64,000 nt of DNA from Candidatus Brocadia pituitae (GTDB lineage: Bacteria; Planctomycetota; Brocadiia; Brocadiales; Brocadiaceae), in the NCBI GenBank assembly GCA_017347445.1, contig AP021856.1:3542613-3606612 (forward strand), given 5' to 3'. Shown one piece after another: positions 1,118-9,368 of this stretch. The notes beneath the pieces are model-generated. The model did not search any database, was not told where the DNA came from, and was given only the letters and a program-made list of their open reading frames with translations. A program made the position numbers and the translations under genes. The first letter of the stretch is position 1, and every line of letters starts with the position of its first letter.

Positions 1118-1245
1118 AACATACGACAAAGGCAAACCCTGAGCGATTAGGGGACGCAAAGTAAAGGATCTTTCAACGCACAAGGATGTAGTTAAAGATG
1201 CGCCTTATCCTTTCGTGAAAAAGACAGCCTTACTGCCGAAGATGT
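1118..1245 (+). promoter_or_regulatory. GEMM-I (cyclic di-GMP class) riboswitch, copy 1
   Basis: The core reads AAAGGCAAACC, a CCCTGAGCGATTAGGGG hairpin, GACGCAAAG, a variable stem and then GACAGCC...TGCCGAA, which matches the GEMM-I aptamer layout. The base equivalent to position 20 of the Vibrio Vc2 aptamer is G (1131), the c-di-GMP-type residue. The 3' part overlaps a perfect terminator hairpin, so transcription termination is the likely output. Downstream on the same strand are a small ORF and the modular protein genes from 1626. Confidence 0.85.
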
Positions 1246-1276
1246 TGAAAAACATTTTTGCAGTAAGGCTTTTTTA
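1226..1276 (+). terminator. intrinsic terminator of riboswitch copy 1
   Basis: AGCCTTACTGC (1226-1236) pairs perfectly with GCAGTAAGGCT (1260-1270) and is followed by a T run. Its left arm is part of the aptamer's 3' strand, so ligand binding and termination are probably coupled. Confidence 0.85.
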
Positions 1277-1309
1277 TTTTAAGGATAGGAGAAAAGGCGT
1301 TTTGCATGA

Positions 1310-1453
1310 GATTGCCAGCTGCGCACCTTGCTTAACGAAGAGTTGTCTGATTTTTCATTGTTCAGCCTCACCGCTATCGTTATAGGCGTCATCTCCTTAT
1401 ATGCAACAACAGCATCTCTAGCCTGGCTCATTTCACCTTGTGAAAGGAGGTAA
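1310..1453 (+). other. short hydrophobic open frame, possible gene remnant
   Basis: A 47-codon frame without an ATG encodes a plausible transmembrane segment (SLTAIVIGVISLYATTASLAWLI) and ends at a TAA directly after AAAGGAGG. It lies just behind the riboswitch terminator. It may be the tail of a deleted membrane protein gene or a non-ATG-initiated small membrane peptide. Confidence 0.25.
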
Positions 1454-1459
1454 ACACAA

Positions 1460-1567
1460 ATGAATATCTTGCCTTTCATGAAAATATTACCTAATCCAAC
1501 TACCTGCACCCACTGCATTACTGCCGTCTATGTAAACGATATCGGTTTCATGCGATCTTATGTATGA
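1460..1567 (+). CDS. small ORF, 35 aa, unknown
   Basis: ATG at 1460 follows a strong ribosome site (AAAGGAGG, 1443-1450, nine bases upstream). The peptide begins MNILPFMKILP and contains a CTHC motif. It ends 58 bases before the ATG of the first modular protein. The good ribosome site is the only real support; the peptide resembles nothing I know, so it may be a leader peptide or chance. Confidence 0.35.
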   Translation: MNILPFMKILPNPTTCTHCITAVYVNDIGFMRSYV

Positions 1568-1625
1568 CCAGTCGAGACATGCGAGAGGGACAATCCCCAC
1601 ACAACTGAGGGAAGGAGGACAAAAT

Positions 1626-3002
1626 ATGGCATACCAAAAGGAATATATGTTATCCGGACTGGAAAGGGAACTGGAGCTGTATCGGGGGGCGGAATACGAA
1701 GCGCCCAGAGATTCAAACGGGAAGACGCACACTATCGCAGTTATTGATACAGCAGGAAAGCCCATGTCCTTCACGTTTAGTGTAGATCAAAATAAGAAGG
1801 GATATGTGTCTACTTCTGACCATACCTATAAAAAAAGTGCCGGGTTGACCACTAAAACTTTTAAAGTACCGGGTCTCACGCAATTAATTGTAGCGTTGAA
1901 TAAAAAAGGGAATACCGCCTTCCTTGTGTTGATGGATTTTCGACAATTCAATGAAGATTATGATGCCTCAAAACCGGCAACCGTTAATAATATGAGCTTT
2001 AATGTAGTCAAACAAAACGCTTTAACACAGTTTGAAATTCTTGAGTCCAAAACAAGTTTTAAGGTCAGTGTTTTCATTGATGGGAAATGGATGACGACTG
2101 AATATCCCATACAAGAACCAGTTGCTCGACAAATCGAGGAATTTAAAGTATTTATCAGCGGACTCCAACTCGAGGTTTTACCTGAGAAATATTTTGACGA
2201 GAAAGAATTAGAATTCAAAGATGAGGAGTACGATTATGAAGATGCATATGATAACGAGCTTGAGTACGAAGAAGTCGAGGAACCCGACGATGAATTCGAA
2301 TGGGAAAACGAGCTGAATGCCCTTGAGGACGATGGCGTTACCGAAAATTTTGCCAGGCGCTTGTACGAACTGTCAACCCGTTCCTACGAGAGCGAATACG
2401 AGCTCGATGAAGAACTGGACCGGGCGCTGGACGCCGTGGAAGATGAGTTTATGGTCAAGCGGCTGCACCGGAAGAAAAAGCGTGGAAAACGCAAAGGTCT
2501 GTTCAAAAAGATTCTCAGCACCGGGGCGAAGATCGTTGGCAAGATTGCCAGCAAAACACCGATCGGTTCCCTGATCAAGGCGGGAACCAGCCTGGTGAGA
2601 GGCGATATTAAAGGGGCGTTGGGGAATCTTGCCAAGTCGGTGGTAGGCGCTGTGTTACCGCCGGGTGTGGGCACCGTAGCCACGGCGGCGATGGATGCCC
2701 TTGGCGGTGGCGGTGAAGAAGGCGGTGAAGGCGGCGAAGAAGGAGAAGTCCGCAGAGGCGGCAGAAGGAAGCGGGCGATCAGGAGAGTTGCCCGAATCGC
2801 CCGCGATACCTACCGGGAAGTTGCCGACACACTCCCCGAAGATTTTGACCATCCGCTGGTCGCCAATGAAGTCGCCAGGAAGGCAGTGCGGAAGGCGATG
2901 GTCAAAAATGGGGTGAGACCGCCCGGCAAAGCGGAAGGTATTCCCCGGCAGAAGCGGGTTATTAGACTCAGACCCGGGGAAAGAGTGGTCATTACCGGGT
3001 AA
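1626..3002 (+). CDS. modular acidic/aromatic-rich protein, paralog 1 (no catalytic domain)
   Basis: 458 aa from ATG 1626, chosen for the GGGAAGGAGG ribosome site. In order: a conserved N-terminal tag (KEYMLSGLERELELY); an alpha/beta-looking domain to about residue 185; a Glu/Asp/Tyr-rich stretch (about 186-275); a basic run (RLHRKKKRGKRKG, about 279-291); a small-residue hydrophobic segment rich in Gly, Ala and Lys (about 292-365); an acidic GE-rich linker; and an Arg-rich tail with RRKRAIRRVARIAR. There is no signal peptide. From about residue 229 on it is nearly identical to the protein at 3201-5147, yet the N-terminal domains are strongly diverged. I recall similar E/Y-rich proteins near contractile injection systems and proteases, but no function is established here. 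Unlike its paralog it has no inserted hydrolase domain. Confidence 0.85.
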   Translation: MAYQKEYMLSGLERELELYRGAEYEAPRDSNGKTHTIAVIDTAGKPMSFTFSVDQNKKGYVSTSDHTYKKSAGLTTKTFKVPGLTQLIVALNKKGNTAFLVLMDFRQFNEDYDASKPATVNNMSFNVVKQNALTQFEILESKTSFKVSVFIDGKWMTTEYPIQEPVARQIEEFKVFISGLQLEVLPEKYFDEKELEFKDEEYDYEDAYDNELEYEEVEEPDDEFEWENELNALEDDGVTENFARRLYELSTRSYESEYELDEELDRALDAVEDEFMVKRLHRKKKRGKRKGLFKKILSTGAKIVGKIASKTPIGSLIKAGTSLVRGDIKGALGNLAKSVVGAVLPPGVGTVATAAMDALGGGGEEGGEGGEEGEVRRGGRRKRAIRRVARIARDTYREVADTLPEDFDHPLVANEVARKAVRKAMVKNGVRPPGKAEGIPRQKRVIRLRPGERVVITG

Positions 3003-3124
3003 TGCAAGACTTTCCAGCGGAGAATTGGAAGGGAATGATGAACGATATTGCACCCTGAGCCTGTCGCGAAGGGTCGGTCGAATGAAACTAGGGGACAAGG
3101 GGATTGTCAATAACCAGGGAAAAA

Positions 3125-3157
3125 CAACCCCTGAATCCCCCTTTGCTAAGGGGGACT
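3125..3157 (+). repeat. palindromic intergenic repeat (CCCCCTTTGCTAAGGGGG type)
   Basis: A short palindrome centred on CCCCCTTTGCTAAGGGGG. It is of the same general kind as the elements at 33788-33838 and inside the helicase gene near 61.3 and 63.5 kb. Confidence 0.45.
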
Positions 3158-3200
3158 TAATTTTGTGCGTTGCACGAATAAGAAATTAAGGAGGACAAAC

Positions 3201-5147
3201 ATGGCACAGCAAAAAGAATATATGTTATCCGGATTGGAGAGGGAGCTGGAGCTTTATATGGGGGAGGAGTATGAAACTGGCATAAAAACACACACAATCA
3301 AAGCGGTGAATACCGTAAATGCAAACGTTGATGTAACATTTAATATTGATGAAAGCCGCAAAACTGGTGAAATAATTACCTCTGGTCATACATATGTGGA
3401 CAAAAAGAAAATAATTCATAACGTGCCCGAAATAAAGCAAGAGGTTGAACGATTGAAAAAAAGGGGTAATACTACAATTTTAGCGTTCGCCAAAGAACGT
3501 TTTGAGTACAACGAAGAAACAAAAACGAAGTCTGTGGCTGGAACGGCAGGTAAAAATGTTGATATGAAATTTGAAATTGATGAATCTAAATCAATATTAA
3601 GGGCAAGTGTATGGTTTGTGGCAAAATGGGTTTCAAATGAGTACAGATTACAAGCACCAGTAGACCAACAAATACAGGATTTAAAGACATTTATTGACGG
3701 ATTACAGCTAGCCGAACAAGAACTTGGCGACGAATATGAACTCCATCCGGATGAAGAGTCAGGATTTAACTATGAAAAAAAGGAAGACCTGCCAGTTAAA
3801 GAAATTGACATTGGCGATCTTCAAGAAGGTGACATTATCGTCTCTACCACTCGTTACCCTCTCTCCAAGGCTATCCGTCTGCTTTCCGGCTCCCGGGTCA
3901 GTCATACCGCCCTGTATATCGGCAATGGTGAAGTTGTGGAAGCGCTTGGTGACGGTGTCACAAGACACTCTGTGGAGAAAGCTACAAAGGACGACAAGTA
4001 TGCCTATGTCTTACGATATCCGGATTTAAGTCTTGGTGCACAGGGAATCATCCGCGGTTTCGCCATCAAGCATGCCAACTTGAAGACGCCTTTCGATTCT
4101 TGGGGAATGGTTCTGCGTGCGGGACTGCGGATTCCCGGGGGAGGAGAAAAAAGATTTTACTGCTCGGAACTCGTTCTCAGATCGTATGAAGCGGCTGGAA
4201 TCCGCTTGTTCGAGACTACCCAGAAACGACCGGGCGATATTGATGAACTCCGGGGTACGAAATTAGATTATGTTGGCCACATAAAACTTACCAAAAAGCA
4301 GCTTCGCAAGCTTGATGATTCGGAATTCGAAATGGCGGATGAAGATAATGAATGGGAATTGGAAGATGTTGAAGAAGATGACGAACTTTCATATGAATAT
4401 GAGTACGAAGAAGACGAAGAACCCGATGATGAATTTGAATTCGGATTCGAAAATGAGCTGAATGCCGTTGAGGACGATGGAGTTACCGAAAATTTTGCCC
4501 GGCGCTTGTACGAACTGTCCACCCGTTCCTACGAAGGCGAATACGAGCTGGATGAAGAACTGGACCGGGCGTTGGATGCCGTGGAAGATGAGTTCATGGT
4601 CAAACGGCTGCACCGGAAGAAAAAACGCGGAAAACGCAAAGGTCTGTTTAAAAAGATTCTCGGCGCGGGGGCGAAAATCGTTGGCAAGATTGCCAACAAG
4701 ACCCCGATCGGCTCCCTGATCAAGGCAGGCACCAGTCTGGTGAGAGGCAACATTAAAGGGGCGCTGGGGAATCTTGCCAAGGCGGCGGTAGGCACTGTGT
4801 TACCACCGGGAGTGGGTACCGTAGCAACTGCAGCAATGGACGCGCTGGGCGGAGGCGAAGAAGGTGGCGAAGCCGGTGAAGAAGGAGAAGTCCGCAGAGG
4901 ATCCAGAAGGAAGCGGGCGATCAGGAGGGTTGCCCGCATCGCCAGGGATACCTACCGTGAAGTTGCGGATACCCTGCCAGAAGATTTTGATCATCCGCTG
5001 GTTGCCAATGAAGTCGCCAGGAAGGCAGTGCAAAAAGCCATGATCAAAAATGGGGTGAGGCCGCCCGGAAAAGCGGAGGGTATTCCCCGGCAGAAGCGGG
5101 TTATCAAGCTCAGGCCCGGGGAAAAAATCGTCATTATCAGGTCATAA
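3201..5147 (+). CDS. modular acidic/aromatic-rich protein, paralog 2, with permuted papain-like hydrolase domain
   Basis: 648 aa from ATG 3201, preceded by TTAAGGAGG. It has the same N-terminal tag as paralog 1, then a diverged version of the N-terminal domain. About residues 203-380 form a YiiX/YebB-type NlpC/P60-superfamily (permuted papain) domain: DLQEGDIIVS, His235 in SHTALYIG and Cys321 in FYCSELV. Such domains hydrolyse amide or acyl bonds in peptidoglycan or lipids; the substrate here is unknown. A very acidic Tyr-rich stretch follows, then the basic run, hydrophobic segment and Arg-rich tail shared with paralog 1. No signal peptide is seen. It is 18 bp upstream of the metalloprotease gene and probably cotranscribed with it. 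Confidence 0.88.
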   Translation: MAQQKEYMLSGLERELELYMGEEYETGIKTHTIKAVNTVNANVDVTFNIDESRKTGEIITSGHTYVDKKKIIHNVPEIKQEVERLKKRGNTTILAFAKERFEYNEETKTKSVAGTAGKNVDMKFEIDESKSILRASVWFVAKWVSNEYRLQAPVDQQIQDLKTFIDGLQLAEQELGDEYELHPDEESGFNYEKKEDLPVKEIDIGDLQEGDIIVSTTRYPLSKAIRLLSGSRVSHTALYIGNGEVVEALGDGVTRHSVEKATKDDKYAYVLRYPDLSLGAQGIIRGFAIKHANLKTPFDSWGMVLRAGLRIPGGGEKRFYCSELVLRSYEAAGIRLFETTQKRPGDIDELRGTKLDYVGHIKLTKKQLRKLDDSEFEMADEDNEWELEDVEEDDELSYEYEYEEDEEPDDEFEFGFENELNAVEDDGVTENFARRLYELSTRSYEGEYELDEELDRALDAVEDEFMVKRLHRKKKRGKRKGLFKKILGAGAKIVGKIANKTPIGSLIKAGTSLVRGNIKGALGNLAKAAVGTVLPPGVGTVATAAMDALGGGEEGGEAGEEGEVRRGSRRKRAIRRVARIARDTYREVADTLPEDFDHPLVANEVARKAVQKAMIKNGVRPPGKAEGIPRQKRVIKLRPGEKIVIIRS

Positions 5148-5165
5148 CCAAACGTTTCATGAGAG

Positions 5166-6440
5166 ATGCCAACGATGATTTCCCAGAATGAGCTTTACCG
5201 GCGATTTATTTCCGTCAGCAATAAAGTGAAGCTTCTTTCATCACTGCGAAAATCGATTGCTCTTCCTGTCGATTACAACATCACCGAAAGCCAGTGGTCG
5301 GCAATTGAATCGCCGTTGTTTGCAATCGAAGCGAAGCTTCGCACCTGCCTGAAAAAAGAGGGAAGAGAACATCTGCGGCTTATTCACCAGGCAGAGGCAA
5401 AGAGGGCGTTGACACTGTTGTTGGGCAAGATGGAGTTGGAACTGTCAAAGGCATTCATCTATTTTGACACCTTTGTGGACCTGTTATCGCAGCGTCATTT
5501 ACCGGAGGTGGGGCTCCTTTTGGGTGGATGTGACGCCCTTGCCTGGGATGCCCTGAAAAAAGATCACCCGGCGCTTTCCATCATTGAGAAACCGCTGGTT
5601 TCCTTTAACCGTGGCTTTGGAGCATCTATCCTCAGAGAGGGAGTGCCGCTGCCGGATGGTACACCCAACCCGCTTGCTACCATTCAAATCCCTTATACCA
5701 AGATCAAGGACAAGTACAATTTAACGTCGGTCGTTCATGAATCAGGTCATTCTGCGATGGTGCAACTGGGATTGGTAAACGTCCTGCCAAAAGCGATCGG
5801 AGATGCCCTGACACATGCCGGGGCGCCGGAGGTGATCGGGAAGCTCTTTGCCCTGTGGACCATGGAGATTGGCCCGGATTTCTGGGGGTTTTGTAATTGC
5901 GGCGCTGCCCAGGCGTCGAGCGCCATGGAAATCCTCAGCCTTCCCCCGTCGCATGTTTTCAAGGTGTCTGCCACGGATCCTCATCCCCCTCCTTTCCTGA
6001 GGGTTTTGCTCGCCTTTGAGTGGTGTCGCCACCAGTGGGGAACCGGGGATTGGGATGAATGGGAAAAACAATGGTTAACCACGTATCCGCTCGAGGCGGC
6101 ATCCGCGAGGGACCGGAAGGTGCTTGCTGCCGGCAGGCGTTATGTATCCACCGTCAGTCGGGCGCTTTTCAACACCAAATTCAGCGCCCTTGACAAGAGA
6201 ACCATCCCGTCTCTTTTTGATCTTAACAGGAGTGACCCGGCGCGGCTGGAAAGACTCGTTCGGGATGCCGAAAGCAGTGGCATCCTGAATTTATCGGAAC
6301 TTTCCCCGTGCGGCCAGTTGGCGCTGTTCAGGACGCTGAGAAACAAGAGCACCTTATCGGAACAATCGCTGGATCGCCTGATGACCGCCTGGTTAATCCG
6401 GTTAGCAAGAGGAAGTAAATTCAAAGAACACTATACTTAA
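5166..6440 (+). CDS. predicted HExxH zinc metalloprotease, family not recognised
   Basis: 424 aa. A zinc-binding HESGH motif (residues 191-195, in SVVHESGHSAM) is preceded by a beta-like stretch and followed by a helical region containing Glu residues that could give the third ligand. No export signal or membrane segment is seen, and the remaining sequence matches no protease family I can name. ATG 5166 has no good ribosome site; ATG 5175 (MISQNE) has GAGAG nine bases upstream and is the likelier start. It lies 18 bp after paralog 2 and 17 bp before the next gene, consistent with one operon. Confidence 0.7.
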   Translation: MPTMISQNELYRRFISVSNKVKLLSSLRKSIALPVDYNITESQWSAIESPLFAIEAKLRTCLKKEGREHLRLIHQAEAKRALTLLLGKMELELSKAFIYFDTFVDLLSQRHLPEVGLLLGGCDALAWDALKKDHPALSIIEKPLVSFNRGFGASILREGVPLPDGTPNPLATIQIPYTKIKDKYNLTSVVHESGHSAMVQLGLVNVLPKAIGDALTHAGAPEVIGKLFALWTMEIGPDFWGFCNCGAAQASSAMEILSLPPSHVFKVSATDPHPPPFLRVLLAFEWCRHQWGTGDWDEWEKQWLTTYPLEAASARDRKVLAAGRRYVSTVSRALFNTKFSALDKRTIPSLFDLNRSDPARLERLVRDAESSGILNLSELSPCGQLALFRTLRNKSTLSEQSLDRLMTAWLIRLARGSKFKEHYT

Positions 6441-6457
6441 CTGAAGGAGGATGTGAA

Positions 6458-7684
6458 ATGACAAATGGTAATGGTAAGACACCTGCTGAATATAAGGCAG
6501 AATTAGCCGCACACGGAGAAAAACTGATCGATCACTCGATCTATCCCAGGCTTAAGGTCCCCTTTGTGCCCTGTGCCGATCTGCTGCTTGCCCAGGCAAA
6601 GGATGATCTCGAAATAAAGGCATTTCACGATCAATATTTTGCTAATTTTGGGGACATCATTTTCACGGTTGCAGATATAAAAAAGTTTTGCAGCGAATTT
6701 AAGGAAGATGAATTAAGCGTGAAAGATTTCATGGCTGCAATGGGATGTTTACCGCCCGGCTGCACGACCCTCTCCGGAATCAGGGGGTCTGCCGGCTATA
6801 TCGATCCCCCCCCGGTTTTAAAAATACCCAGGTTGTTCATAGGTGACGTGGTATGGGCTTATTGGATTGACCGGATGGGGATATTTGAAATATTTGCTAA
6901 ACTGGTGAATGATTATGCCACGGCCGGAAAGTTTCCTATTGACAATAATATTCCTTTTGGCGACACTAATTTAACACCGGTTATCTTAGAGGTAATGGTG
7001 CGCCAATTACAGATGGGGCTTGCTTCTTTAGCCCGGGACCGGGTGAGCACGTATCGTCGCTGTCTGGGTTGGACCACCCCTGTTGGCAGGAAAATGGATA
7101 TTCAGACTGAAGTGAACACTGCATTTACCAGCCAATTCCACCTATTTATGAAAACCGCATTGGAGTATTACAAAGACCTGCGCTTAGCTCAGGCAATCCG
7201 GCAAACAACCACTGGCGGGGCGTCTGCGTCAACACGGGTTGCGGTTGCCGAGGCGTTACAATTGTTAAAGGAATCCTTCAAGGTGTTTGGTTACGGGCGA
7301 AATAACTATAATACCCTGAATGCCATTGTTTATGAAATTGCTGCGTTGGATCTGATAAGAAACCTCCGGGATGATATCGGCATACCCAGCACCTATACCA
7401 AAGCCAGTCAGTATGTTTCAGCCGCATATTCGACTTTAGTGGAAGGAAAATCTGCGTCAGAGTATAAACCCAATCGCTATATGCTGCACCTGGATTGCGC
7501 GGAAAAAGGAAGAGATTTGCTCCTGGATATTGAGGCTCTCAACACGGATGATGTGGATGCCGTAGGCACGTGGCTCGAAAATAAGATTGTTGAGGAAAAA
7601 CTGGAAACGTACCGGAAGGCATACCGGGATATTACCAAAATTGATTTGGCAGAGAGCATTCAGAATATAGAACAACAGGTTTAA
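6458..7684 (+). CDS. conserved-looking protein of unknown function
   Basis: 408 aa with a strong ribosome site (GAAGGAGG) before ATG 6458. It is soluble and mostly helical in appearance, with no signal peptide and no catalytic motif I recognise. A CLPPGCTTLSGIRGSAGYIDPPP segment near residues 96-118 has the look of a conserved core. It begins 17 bp after the metalloprotease gene and so very likely belongs to the same transcript. It could be an adaptor, immunity or regulatory partner of the neighbouring proteases, but nothing in the sequence decides this. Confidence 0.75.
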   Translation: MTNGNGKTPAEYKAELAAHGEKLIDHSIYPRLKVPFVPCADLLLAQAKDDLEIKAFHDQYFANFGDIIFTVADIKKFCSEFKEDELSVKDFMAAMGCLPPGCTTLSGIRGSAGYIDPPPVLKIPRLFIGDVVWAYWIDRMGIFEIFAKLVNDYATAGKFPIDNNIPFGDTNLTPVILEVMVRQLQMGLASLARDRVSTYRRCLGWTTPVGRKMDIQTEVNTAFTSQFHLFMKTALEYYKDLRLAQAIRQTTTGGASASTRVAVAEALQLLKESFKVFGYGRNNYNTLNAIVYEIAALDLIRNLRDDIGIPSTYTKASQYVSAAYSTLVEGKSASEYKPNRYMLHLDCAEKGRDLLLDIEALNTDDVDAVGTWLENKIVEEKLETYRKAYRDITKIDLAESIQNIEQQV

Positions 7685-7811
7685 GATGAGATACTCATGG
7701 CTTTATCCGGCACTTCCCGGGATTAAGAACTATGGCGATATTACGCATGATAAGAGAATGGTTTCATCATGGTATGACCTGTGTTTTAAGTTAATCTGCC
7801 TTTGGCAGCAA

Positions 7812-7903
7812 TGTAGGTAGTCGCAGGCCTCAGCCTGCGTGGTATTCCTGGGTAAAAGAGAATTGCGAAATGACCGTAGCGCAGACTAAAGTCTGCGGCT
7901 ACC
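7812..7903. repeat. paired-hairpin repeat
   Basis: Two palindromes, CGCAGGCCTCAGCCTGCG (7822-7839 region) and GCAGACTAAAGTCTGC, flanked by GTAG...CTAC, lie in the 341-bp gap between the unknown gene and the metacaspase. This looks like a small REP-pair or MITE. The rest of the gap holds only the metacaspase leader. Confidence 0.6.
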
Positions 7904-8025
7904 AAAGACCCGAAAATCCGTAAAAATGAAATGAAATTCCTATACAAACGACACAACGCTGATTCCGAATAAAGAATCGGTATGATCTTAATTTACCTGC
8001 AAACTTAACTTCAGAGGAGGACTTT

Positions 8026-8862
8026 ATGCCAAAAGGGATTGCACTAACCACGGGATTAAATGCCGTTAATCCAGCACATTACGGCGGCTGGTCGGGAGAA
8101 CTCAACGCGTGTGAAGCTGACGCAAAAGACATGGCGGAGATTGCTCAGTCAAAAGGTTTTGACGTAAAAACCTTGCTTACCAAAGAAGCTACCCGGAAAA
8201 ATGTTATCGATGGGATTACCAAGGCTGCCAGCGCCCTGACCTCTGGCGACATCTTTATGCTCAGCTATTCCGGTCACGGCGGCCAACTCCCAGACCTGAA
8301 CAGCGATGAAGATGATGCACAGGATGAAACGTGGTGCCTGTATGATGGTGAACTGGTAGATGATGAGATTTATGCATTGCTCGGCAAATTTGTACATGGC
8401 GTGCGTATCCTGGTCTTTTCCGACAGTTGCCACAGCGGTACAGTAACAAAGCTTGTTTATTATCAATCTGCCATGAGGGCGACGGGTCCGAAGGGAATTT
8501 CTTCTGAAATCAGATATCGTTTCATGCCAATGGAGGTTGCGGTCCGCACCTATCGTGATAACAAAAAATTTTATGACCCCATCTTAAAAGATCCCAAATT
8601 AAAGGAATCGCGTGATGCCGTGAAGGCCTCAGCGATCCTTATTTCCGGATGCCAGGACAATCAATTGTCGGCTGATGGCACGTTCAACGGATTGTTCACC
8701 GCCAATTTGTTGCAGGTGTGGAATGAAGGAAAGTTTAAGAAAGGATACCGTGCCTTTCGGCGTGCTATCGTAAACCGCATGCCGCCCGATCAGACGCCAA
8801 ACTATTTCCGGGTGGGTGAGATCAACCGCGCTTTTGAAAAACAGAAACCGTTTACCATTTAA
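8026..8862 (+). CDS. type I metacaspase (caspase-fold cysteine protease, family C14)
   Basis: 278 aa from ATG 8026 with AGAGGAGG upstream. The catalytic dyad is clear: His84 in LSYSGHGGQ and Cys135 in FSDSCHSGT. The DETWCLYDGELVDDEI stretch is typical of bacterial metacaspases. There is no prodomain, signal peptide or membrane segment, so it should be cytosolic. Metacaspases cut after Arg or Lys rather than Asp, often with calcium. It is on the same strand as the modular protein operon, 341 bp downstream of it, with a repeat in between; a separate promoter is possible. The basic runs in the two modular proteins are attractive candidate cleavage sites, but this is inference. Confidence 0.92.
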   Translation: MPKGIALTTGLNAVNPAHYGGWSGELNACEADAKDMAEIAQSKGFDVKTLLTKEATRKNVIDGITKAASALTSGDIFMLSYSGHGGQLPDLNSDEDDAQDETWCLYDGELVDDEIYALLGKFVHGVRILVFSDSCHSGTVTKLVYYQSAMRATGPKGISSEIRYRFMPMEVAVRTYRDNKKFYDPILKDPKLKESRDAVKASAILISGCQDNQLSADGTFNGLFTANLLQVWNEGKFKKGYRAFRRAIVNRMPPDQTPNYFRVGEINRAFEKQKPFTI

Positions 8863-8928
8863 CCAGCCGTGTATTTCCTCGCGTAAACACAACCTGTACC
8901 GTGGTGAACAGAAAGGCGGCATACAGAC

Positions 8929-9111
8929 TATAGCAAGCGCATAAAGAAAGTTGTCATGCGAGGGTGCTAGCCCAAAGCAATCTCTGCTATGACTGTCACT
9001 CCGGGCAAAACGGGGAATCTCATGGGTTTGCTTTGCTTGGGTTCACAATTTCGGCTTCGCTGTCGCTCGCAACGACCAGCATATGCCAACTTATTTAATA
9101 CGTTTACTATA
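8929..9111. mobile_element. 183-bp MITE-like element with imperfect ~29-bp terminal inverted repeats
   Basis: The left end begins TATAGCAAGCGCATAAAG and the right end, read backwards, begins TATAGTAAACGTATTAAA; both run into AGTTG(G/T)CAT. Inside it is the common GTCATGCGAGG...CTCGCAACGAC type palindromic repeat (about 8952-9076). No ORF is present, so it would depend on a transposase elsewhere. Confidence 0.6.
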
Positions 9112-9185
9112 ACAATACGGTATCACGAGAACTTTTAATTATTCAAATTGCTTTTAGCAAGTAGCAAGATAATGGGATAAACAAA

Positions 9186-9296
9186 ACATACATACGATAA
9201 AGGCAAACCCTGAGCGATCAGGGGACGCAAAGGAAGGGTCTCGCCAAACCGCTTAAGCCGTTTAAACGGCTTGAACGGTTTTTATTGCCGAAGATG
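9186..9296 (+). promoter_or_regulatory. GEMM-I riboswitch, copy 2 (orphan)
   Basis: The 5' half (CATACGATAAAGGCAAACC, CCCTGAGCGATCAGGGG, GACGCAAAG) is almost identical to copy 1, with G at the position-20 equivalent (9202). The variable stem is short and contains the perfect 18-bp palindrome AAGCCGTTTAAACGGCTT (9255-9272); the 3' element is reduced to TTGCCGAAGATG. No plus-strand gene follows before the convergent korB, so it has lost its target or acts on nothing visible. Confidence 0.75.
9246..9284 (+). terminator. hairpin plus T-run inside riboswitch copy 2
   Basis: AAACCG...AAGCCGTTTAAACGGCTT...CGGTTTTT forms a strong stem followed by five Ts and may itself end transcription. The usual GCAGTAAGGC terminator after the aptamer is degraded here, with only the right arm kept at 9312-9320. 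Confidence 0.45.
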
Positions 9297-9368
9297 TTTG
9301 TGGAAATTTTTGCAGTAAGCTTTTTTATTTTAACGTTAAGGAATTTCAAAGTATATGGTTTTTAGTAT

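Follow-up and report, generated by a model that had tools for sequence, protein, structure and literature searches.

A c-di-GMP riboswitch-headed gene cluster of Candidatus Brocadia pituitae as the likely Brocadiales version of a widespread cassette that combines constant and variable modules

The window considered here, i.e. the whole 64,000-nucleotide stretch of DNA that was analysed, belongs to the complete 4.08 Mb genome of the anammox planctomycete Candidatus Brocadia pituitae (genome G000) and carries, downstream of nadC and kdsB, five genes designated A to E together with several RNA elements, all on the forward strand:

1122-1241, forward strand: c-di-GMP-I (GGC type) aptamer (Rfam RF03167, 59.4 bits, E 1.7e-11)
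1226-1280, forward strand: intrinsic terminator, a stem of -28.4 kcal/mol then a T run, with its 5' arm at 1226-1236
1626-3002, forward strand: A, a 458 aa mosaic modular protein with an N-terminal tag, a variable domain, an acidic stretch, a basic run, a Gly/Ala/Lys-rich stretch and a charged tail
2460-2498, forward strand: basic run RLHRKKKRGKRKG of A (from the ORF translation and the A/B comparison)
3201-5147, forward strand: B, a 648 aa mosaic modular protein with ends as in A
3819-4211, forward strand: permuted papain-like domain of the Peptidase_C92 / NlpC-P60 type inside B (PF05708, E 2.9e-10), with SHTALY and YCSEL motifs
5166-6440, forward strand: C, a predicted gluzincin-like metallopeptidase and the marker gene of the cassette
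6458-7684, forward strand: D, a 408-aa protein predicted to be all-helical, with a fold without known match
8026-8862, forward strand: E, a metacaspase orthologous to GSU0716, a neighbour outside the conserved cassette
9192-9292, forward strand: a second, weaker c-di-GMP-I aptamer (Rfam) with a weakened terminator and no gene behind it on the same strand

All the parts named in a preliminary description of this DNA were recovered on the forward strand from the open reading frames and by Pfam and Rfam matches, with two amendments to its inventory. While A, B, C and E are present as described, D, encoded between C and E, had been left unnamed, and the papain-like hydrolase, confirmed as a C92 domain, turned out to be a domain of B and no separate gene. 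Besides, an exported protein ending in a run of eight aspartates is encoded upstream of the cluster (262-1053), the gene preceding it has an aptamer upstream (L013:18728-18851), and a palindromic, repeat-like sequence lies between D and E (7800-7910).

Regarding the modular proteins, the longest frame of A in the ORF list spans 1560-3002; its real start is most likely at 1626, since a 25-residue start, MAxQKEYMLSGLERELELY, is common to A, B and their relatives in other genomes. A and B are mosaics in which the N-terminal tag and the C-terminal module are constant and the middle diverges. At the DNA level, the first 75 nt are 84% identical and the last 812 nt 85.6%, the middle falling outside the DNA match; between the translated sequences, identity is 39% over the N-terminal part and 92% over the C-terminal 233 aa, with the C92 domain (also matched by Pfam as NlpC/P60) additional in B. 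Across six copies from G000 and the genomes G005 and G046, the C-terminal module is 84-93% identical and the middles differ, the A/B-type copies of G005 and G046 carrying other middles. A short A/B-type form with an LSxLEREFELE-like start is found in genome G008 and at loci L047, L048 and L050. No Sec signal is visible on A-D. Screening with PADLOC and PHROGs returned nothing for A, C and D; the peptidase domain of B matches a phage family and E a generic caspase model. Of note, the first A/B-type gene of G046 (locus L005) contains two in-frame TGA codons.

A and B have the same basic run, RLHRKKKRGKRKG, which sits between two stretches of opposite charge, namely an acidic one (residues 188-278 of A, with 39 D/E per 91 residues and a net charge of -31) and the Gly/Ala/Lys-rich one (net +16 in 81 residues). 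The order acidic region, basic run, hydrophobic region proposed in the preliminary description is thus borne out in both proteins, except that the last part is merely mildly hydrophobic, the best 19-residue Kyte-Doolittle mean being 1.44 in A and 1.32 in B, under the usual transmembrane cut-off. Near-identity of the run is confined to this genus and Scalindua; relatives have instead GLKKRWKQFKKRG, GLWKKVKKAG or only a few Lys/Arg. Among the Pfam and PADLOC models, which may lack a bacterial gasdermin, none identified A or B as a gasdermin.

The metacaspase identity of E, claimed from the start, is well founded: the protein matches Peptidase_C14 (E 7e-27 in Pfam), keeps the catalytic His-Cys motifs SGHGG and DSCHSG intact, and aligns over its full length with PDB 3bij, the structure of GSU0716 (403 bits, E 5.9e-120). 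Its place in the cluster is another matter. Orthologs 89-94% identical occur in genomes G002, G003, G004 and G005; in the first three, all of the same genus, E adjoins nadC and kdsB, which also lie upstream of the cluster in the window, and A-D are absent there, G003 having a distant cassette elsewhere in the genome, away from E. Conversely, A-D are present and an E ortholog absent in G008 and G046, so that E and A-D are apart in five of the seven relevant genomes. Even where both occur the order flips, with A-D preceding E in the window and following it in G005, and of the C-bearing loci collected across genomes, the window and the G005 contig alone encode E, the other 80-odd loci having none. 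The co-occurrence of the five genes, which had been put forward as a check, therefore splits: the A-D neighbourhood is conserved together with its riboswitch, and E is not kept with it. Because E orthologs stand at nadC-kdsB in genomes without A-D, and A-D stand elsewhere without E, E is, as judged from these neighbourhoods, an older resident beside which A-D lie and not their activating protease. An aptamer of its own precedes E in G002, G003 and G005, and E may share c-di-GMP regulation with A-D.

These data bear directly on the mechanism initially favoured, in which E would cut A and B at the basic run and free a membrane-active C-terminus in a gasdermin-like manner. In its favour are the adjacency of E on the same strand in the window, and beside A-D in G005, the c-di-GMP aptamers upstream of E in three genomes, and the preference of metacaspases for cutting after Arg/Lys, residues offered by a run lying between acidic and Gly/Ala-rich parts. 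With a protease that comes and goes independently of its supposed substrates and changes sides, a basic run not kept in distant relatives and a Gly/Ala-rich part below transmembrane hydropathy, such a metacaspase-gated pore is highly improbable.

The metalloprotease assignment of C is a prediction supported by its sequence. C has a single HExxH (residues 191-195), and H191, E192, G194, H195, E234, D238 and H273 are invariant among 44 aligned relatives, so that the gluzincin signature, HExxH plus a downstream Glu ligand, is present throughout. In the predicted model (pLDDT 92.8), the VIA-align rows over the catalytic region are M48 and M1 peptidases, namely 6ait (Z 7.5, rmsd 5.2, 170 aligned), 3c37 (Z 5.9, rmsd 4.7, 158 aligned) and 1gw6 (Z 5.7, rmsd 5.3, 180 aligned), all in a Z range where chance matches occur. 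Neither core protein, C or D, belongs to a Pfam or NCBIfam family, and Foldseek searches of C and D against the PDB, and of C against viral models, brought up nothing below E 0.001. The predicted model of D is helical, with modest confidence (pLDDT 69); all its VIA-align rows stay below Z 5, and the alpha-pore toxins ClyA, AhlB and MakE among them were not counted as evidence. In G005, C is split over two frames (L014:8032-9305), by mutation or assembly error.

That the cluster begins behind a c-di-GMP-class switch, as first noticed, is supported by the RF03167 match at 1122-1241, which at 59.4 bits lies just above the gathering score of 59, and by the presence of a c-di-GMP-I aptamer before A in each of the four Brocadiales genomes that carry A-D (G000, G005, G046 and G008), in G008 directly before the A-type gene. 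The window aptamer is of the GGC type, and the G at its ligand-selecting position presumably denotes c-di-GMP rather than cGAMP. It stands 385 nt ahead of A, with the terminator directly on its 3' side. The terminator 5' arm, AGCCTTACTGC (window positions 1226-1236), is the 3' strand of P3 in the aptamer structure line, which makes the folded aptamer and the terminator mutually exclusive, and from this exclusion the ligand is expected to switch transcription on. The same aptamer-terminator arrangement recurs in G005, G046 and G008. A-D would accordingly be placed under c-di-GMP ON control, as we infer from the overlap of the two RNA structures. About 44 c-di-GMP-I aptamers score above the family cut-off in G000, i.e. 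a large riboswitch regulon, and the ORFs downstream of the others include a pseudopilin-like protein, glycosyltransferases and exported proteins; with so many in this genome, the presence of one aptamer is not rare in itself, and the evidence is its conservation at A in four genomes. At the seven loci with other cassette forms that were checked, no aptamer lies directly before the cassette. The aptamer at 9192-9292 of the window may be a relic, given that G005 has a subtilase gene headed by an aptamer located after D (L014:6294-6412). The segment from the terminator to A (1281-1625) looks similar in the window, G005 and G046 with no obvious common open frame, and may represent a degenerate gene or another RNA element.

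Beyond the Brocadiales, relatives of C were sought in 84,980 species genomes with a seven-sequence alignment of C, an 11-protein alignment being too divergent. The scan gave 208 C relatives, of which 80 were kept as loci, in Planctomycetota, Proteobacteria, Bacteroidota, Nitrospirota, Acidobacteriota and others. The A-D form itself is patchy, being found in four of 59 relative genomes. Among some 90 clustered loci (counts slightly inflated by the near-duplicates L014/L051, L015/L049 and L034/L091, and including metagenome-derived entries with possible bin contamination), 89 encode C and 83 a D relative. Acidic/Gly-Ala-rich or acidic-tagged proteins occur at 67 loci, with 126 copies altogether, a PLP aminotransferase-like enzyme at 57, an amidohydrolase at 46 and, as read from sequence, a putative sigma-54/Fis-type regulator at 57. 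The typical order is one or two acidic/Gly-Ala-rich proteins, C, D, the PLP enzyme, an effector-like protein, an M20 peptidase, the amidohydrolase and, on the opposite strand, the regulator. In the Brocadiales form, as in its nearest relatives (one bin each of Methanoperedens, a deltaproteobacterium and Saprospiraceae), an A/B-type protein is accompanied by C and D, and proteins bearing VanY, M15 or DUF2272 mostly come next. Two further genera of the family have distant cassettes (L035 and L036) in which DUF4438, trypsin and LuxR-type genes lie next to the C relative, and in Bradyrhizobium quebecense (L045) the C relative is accompanied by two CHAT-domain proteins, PLD-like proteins, a patatin and an S8/S53 peptidase. 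Small unassigned ORFs occur in some loci.

In the wider acidic/Gly-Ala-rich proteins, an acidic-aromatic start is followed by the helix ELAAELLEVSxEAELDQFLG, then by a Gly/Ala-rich stretch and the tail SGRWxRxGxxIIxxG. The A/B module is linked to them by an hhalign match (probability 94% over 62 columns, a moderate, remote likeness), by its position directly before C and by the same layout. In the accessory slot, 67 proteins display a broad range of domains: PG_binding_1 in 19, trypsin in 9, Amidase_2 and OmpA in 5 each, VanY in 4, M15 in 2, an APOBEC/SNAD4-like deaminase in 2, single matches to M23, M74, C1, CHAP, S8 and PhoD, and one weak GIY-YIG match below the curated cut-off. An acidic-aromatic start is enriched in cassette effector-like proteins, being seen in 20 of 71 as compared with 57 among the 631 remaining proteins of these loci, with a cut-off picked after inspection. 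The possibility of a double-glycine bacteriocin leader was rejected because, at the FLGx site, constancy is limited to the first Gly. No immunity gene was identified among the cassette loci, no export machinery could be assigned, and viral contigs held no relatives of B or C; in the open-licence PMC literature, no description of the cassette was found. The better-supported reading of the locus is that A-D and their riboswitch form a variant of a widespread, apparently undescribed cassette of constant and variable modules; the initial idea of a riboswitch-headed cluster survives as a conserved unit of modular proteins and hydrolases, to which the metacaspase had been wrongly joined.

As the alternative to a gated pore, cargo of a contractile injection or other export system had been suggested. 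The proteins do resemble described cargo of extracellular contractile injection systems (eCIS; PMC11297309) in their effector-like domains, their polar N-terminal tag and their lack of signal peptides, and two T6SS sheath (VipB) genes exist in G000, far from the window (G000:C1:1902276-1912973). Yet the phage-type sheath PF04984, present in 14 of the 59 relative genomes, is absent from all four A-D genomes, and also from G003, G018 and G025, which have distant cassettes; VipB, present in G000, is absent from G005, G008 and G046. Among 20 wider carriers, 15 are without PF04984, 9 without VipB and 7 without both; three of the genomes without VipB are drafts. Because the phage-type sheath is missing in the A-D genomes and both sheath types in seven wider carriers, the cassette is, on gene content, independent of a contractile machine, and cargo of either eCIS or T6SS is very unlikely. 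Of the earlier alternative, the contractile particle is not supported, and an export or effector role in a broad sense is the preferred reading.

Two further readings take the same genes in other directions. In the first, c-di-GMP would induce secreted acidic adhesion or gel proteins, together with peptidoglycan hydrolases fitting them into the envelope, during aggregate (granule) formation. The predicted c-di-GMP control of A-D, a regulon of about 44 aptamers whose other downstream genes include some that look like a pseudopilin, glycosyltransferases and exported proteins, and the abundance of PG_binding_1, OmpA and amidase domains in relatives all agree with such surface, matrix or wall remodelling; it accounts poorly for an accessory slot that also holds deaminases, trypsins and a possible GIY-YIG nuclease, for mosaic, fast-changing middles typical of conflict proteins, for A-D devoid of a visible Sec signal and for the patchy distribution, and is best regarded as possible without being probable. 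In the second, A/B-type proteins would be precursors, present in one to three copies per cassette, whose cationic Gly/Ala-rich stretch, set after an acidic helical leader, is released by the dedicated peptidase C as a bacteriocin-like peptide, which the PLP enzyme and the amidohydrolase encoded in fuller cassettes would modify. About 100 more conserved residues follow the Gly/Ala-rich part, however, including a conserved tail, the Brocadiales A-D cassettes are without PLP and amidohydrolase genes, and a constant cleavage motif was not found, making a peptide or small-molecule pathway improbable.

The explanation preferred here, to which about an even chance is given, is that A-D represent the Brocadiales form of a widespread, c-di-GMP-induced polymorphic effector cassette. 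c-di-GMP is a signal of aggregated growth. At high c-di-GMP, i.e. in sessile, aggregated growth, the aptamer would fold and hold the terminator 5' arm, and A-D would be transcribed. A and B would then act as signal-peptide-less effector carriers, the variable domain, in B a C92/NlpC-type hydrolase, acting on the envelopes of other cells, and the acidic/aromatic start and constant module serving packaging, export or surface binding. C would process both carriers, D could be a scaffold or chaperone, and E would be an old neighbour under the same second messenger. Pointing this way are the conserved gene order, the varied accessory domains, the A/B mosaic, the enrichment of the acidic-aromatic start, the riboswitch in four of four genomes with its terminator/P3 overlap, and the active-site pattern and model of C; effector function, processing by C and a scaffold role of D are inferred. 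As a counterpoint, peptidoglycan hydrolases, trypsins and an amidohydrolase would equally suit nutrient scavenging or wall remodelling. A bolder and rather doubtful proposition is that acidic/Gly-Ala-rich proteins, C and D constitute a self-contained, undescribed assembly or export route for signal-peptide-less effectors, which would recognise the acidic-aromatic tag, work independently of contractile machines and be switched by c-di-GMP in anammox bacteria. Should the cassette turn out to be an effector system, environmental and wastewater bacteria would commonly use it as a weapon or for remodelling, which could be tested in culturable carriers such as Janthinobacterium, Duganella, Nitrosomonas and Runella, and in anammox bacteria effector production would be tied to c-di-GMP and so to granule formation.

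With respect to known systems, E is a full-length close homolog of the Geobacter sulfurreducens metacaspase GSU0716 (PDB 3bij), for which, to our knowledge, no link to a cassette of the A-D kind is known. C shares HExxH and a downstream Glu with the M48/M1 gluzincins (BepA 6ait, 3c37 and LTA4H 1gw6) and aligns structurally over 158-180 residues, but differs by the lack of a sequence match, and the Z of 5.7-7.5 is within the chance range for helical proteins. As with bacterial gasdermins and their adjacent caspase-like protease (reviewed in PMC9612521), a caspase-fold protease lies beside a possible membrane-active protein; here, in contrast, E is not conserved with the cassette and the proposed active part is C-terminal, Gly/Ala-rich and without family match. 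The likeness to eCIS cargo (PMC11297309) extends to signal-peptide-less effectors, a polar N-terminal tag, a nearby HExxH protein and peptidoglycan-binding domains, whereas the four A-D genomes are without sheath genes and C is without a DUF4157 match. Compared with polymorphic toxin systems (Zhang et al., 2012, PMC3482391), A and B have constant parts at both ends and the variable domain in the middle, no known trafficking module or immunity gene is seen, and the core proteins C and D are without Pfam family; those systems likewise combine a constant region with variable effector domains, such as peptidases and deaminases, and recombine at one locus, and a constant region with variable effector domains at one locus is what the A/B mosaic and the varied accessory slot display.
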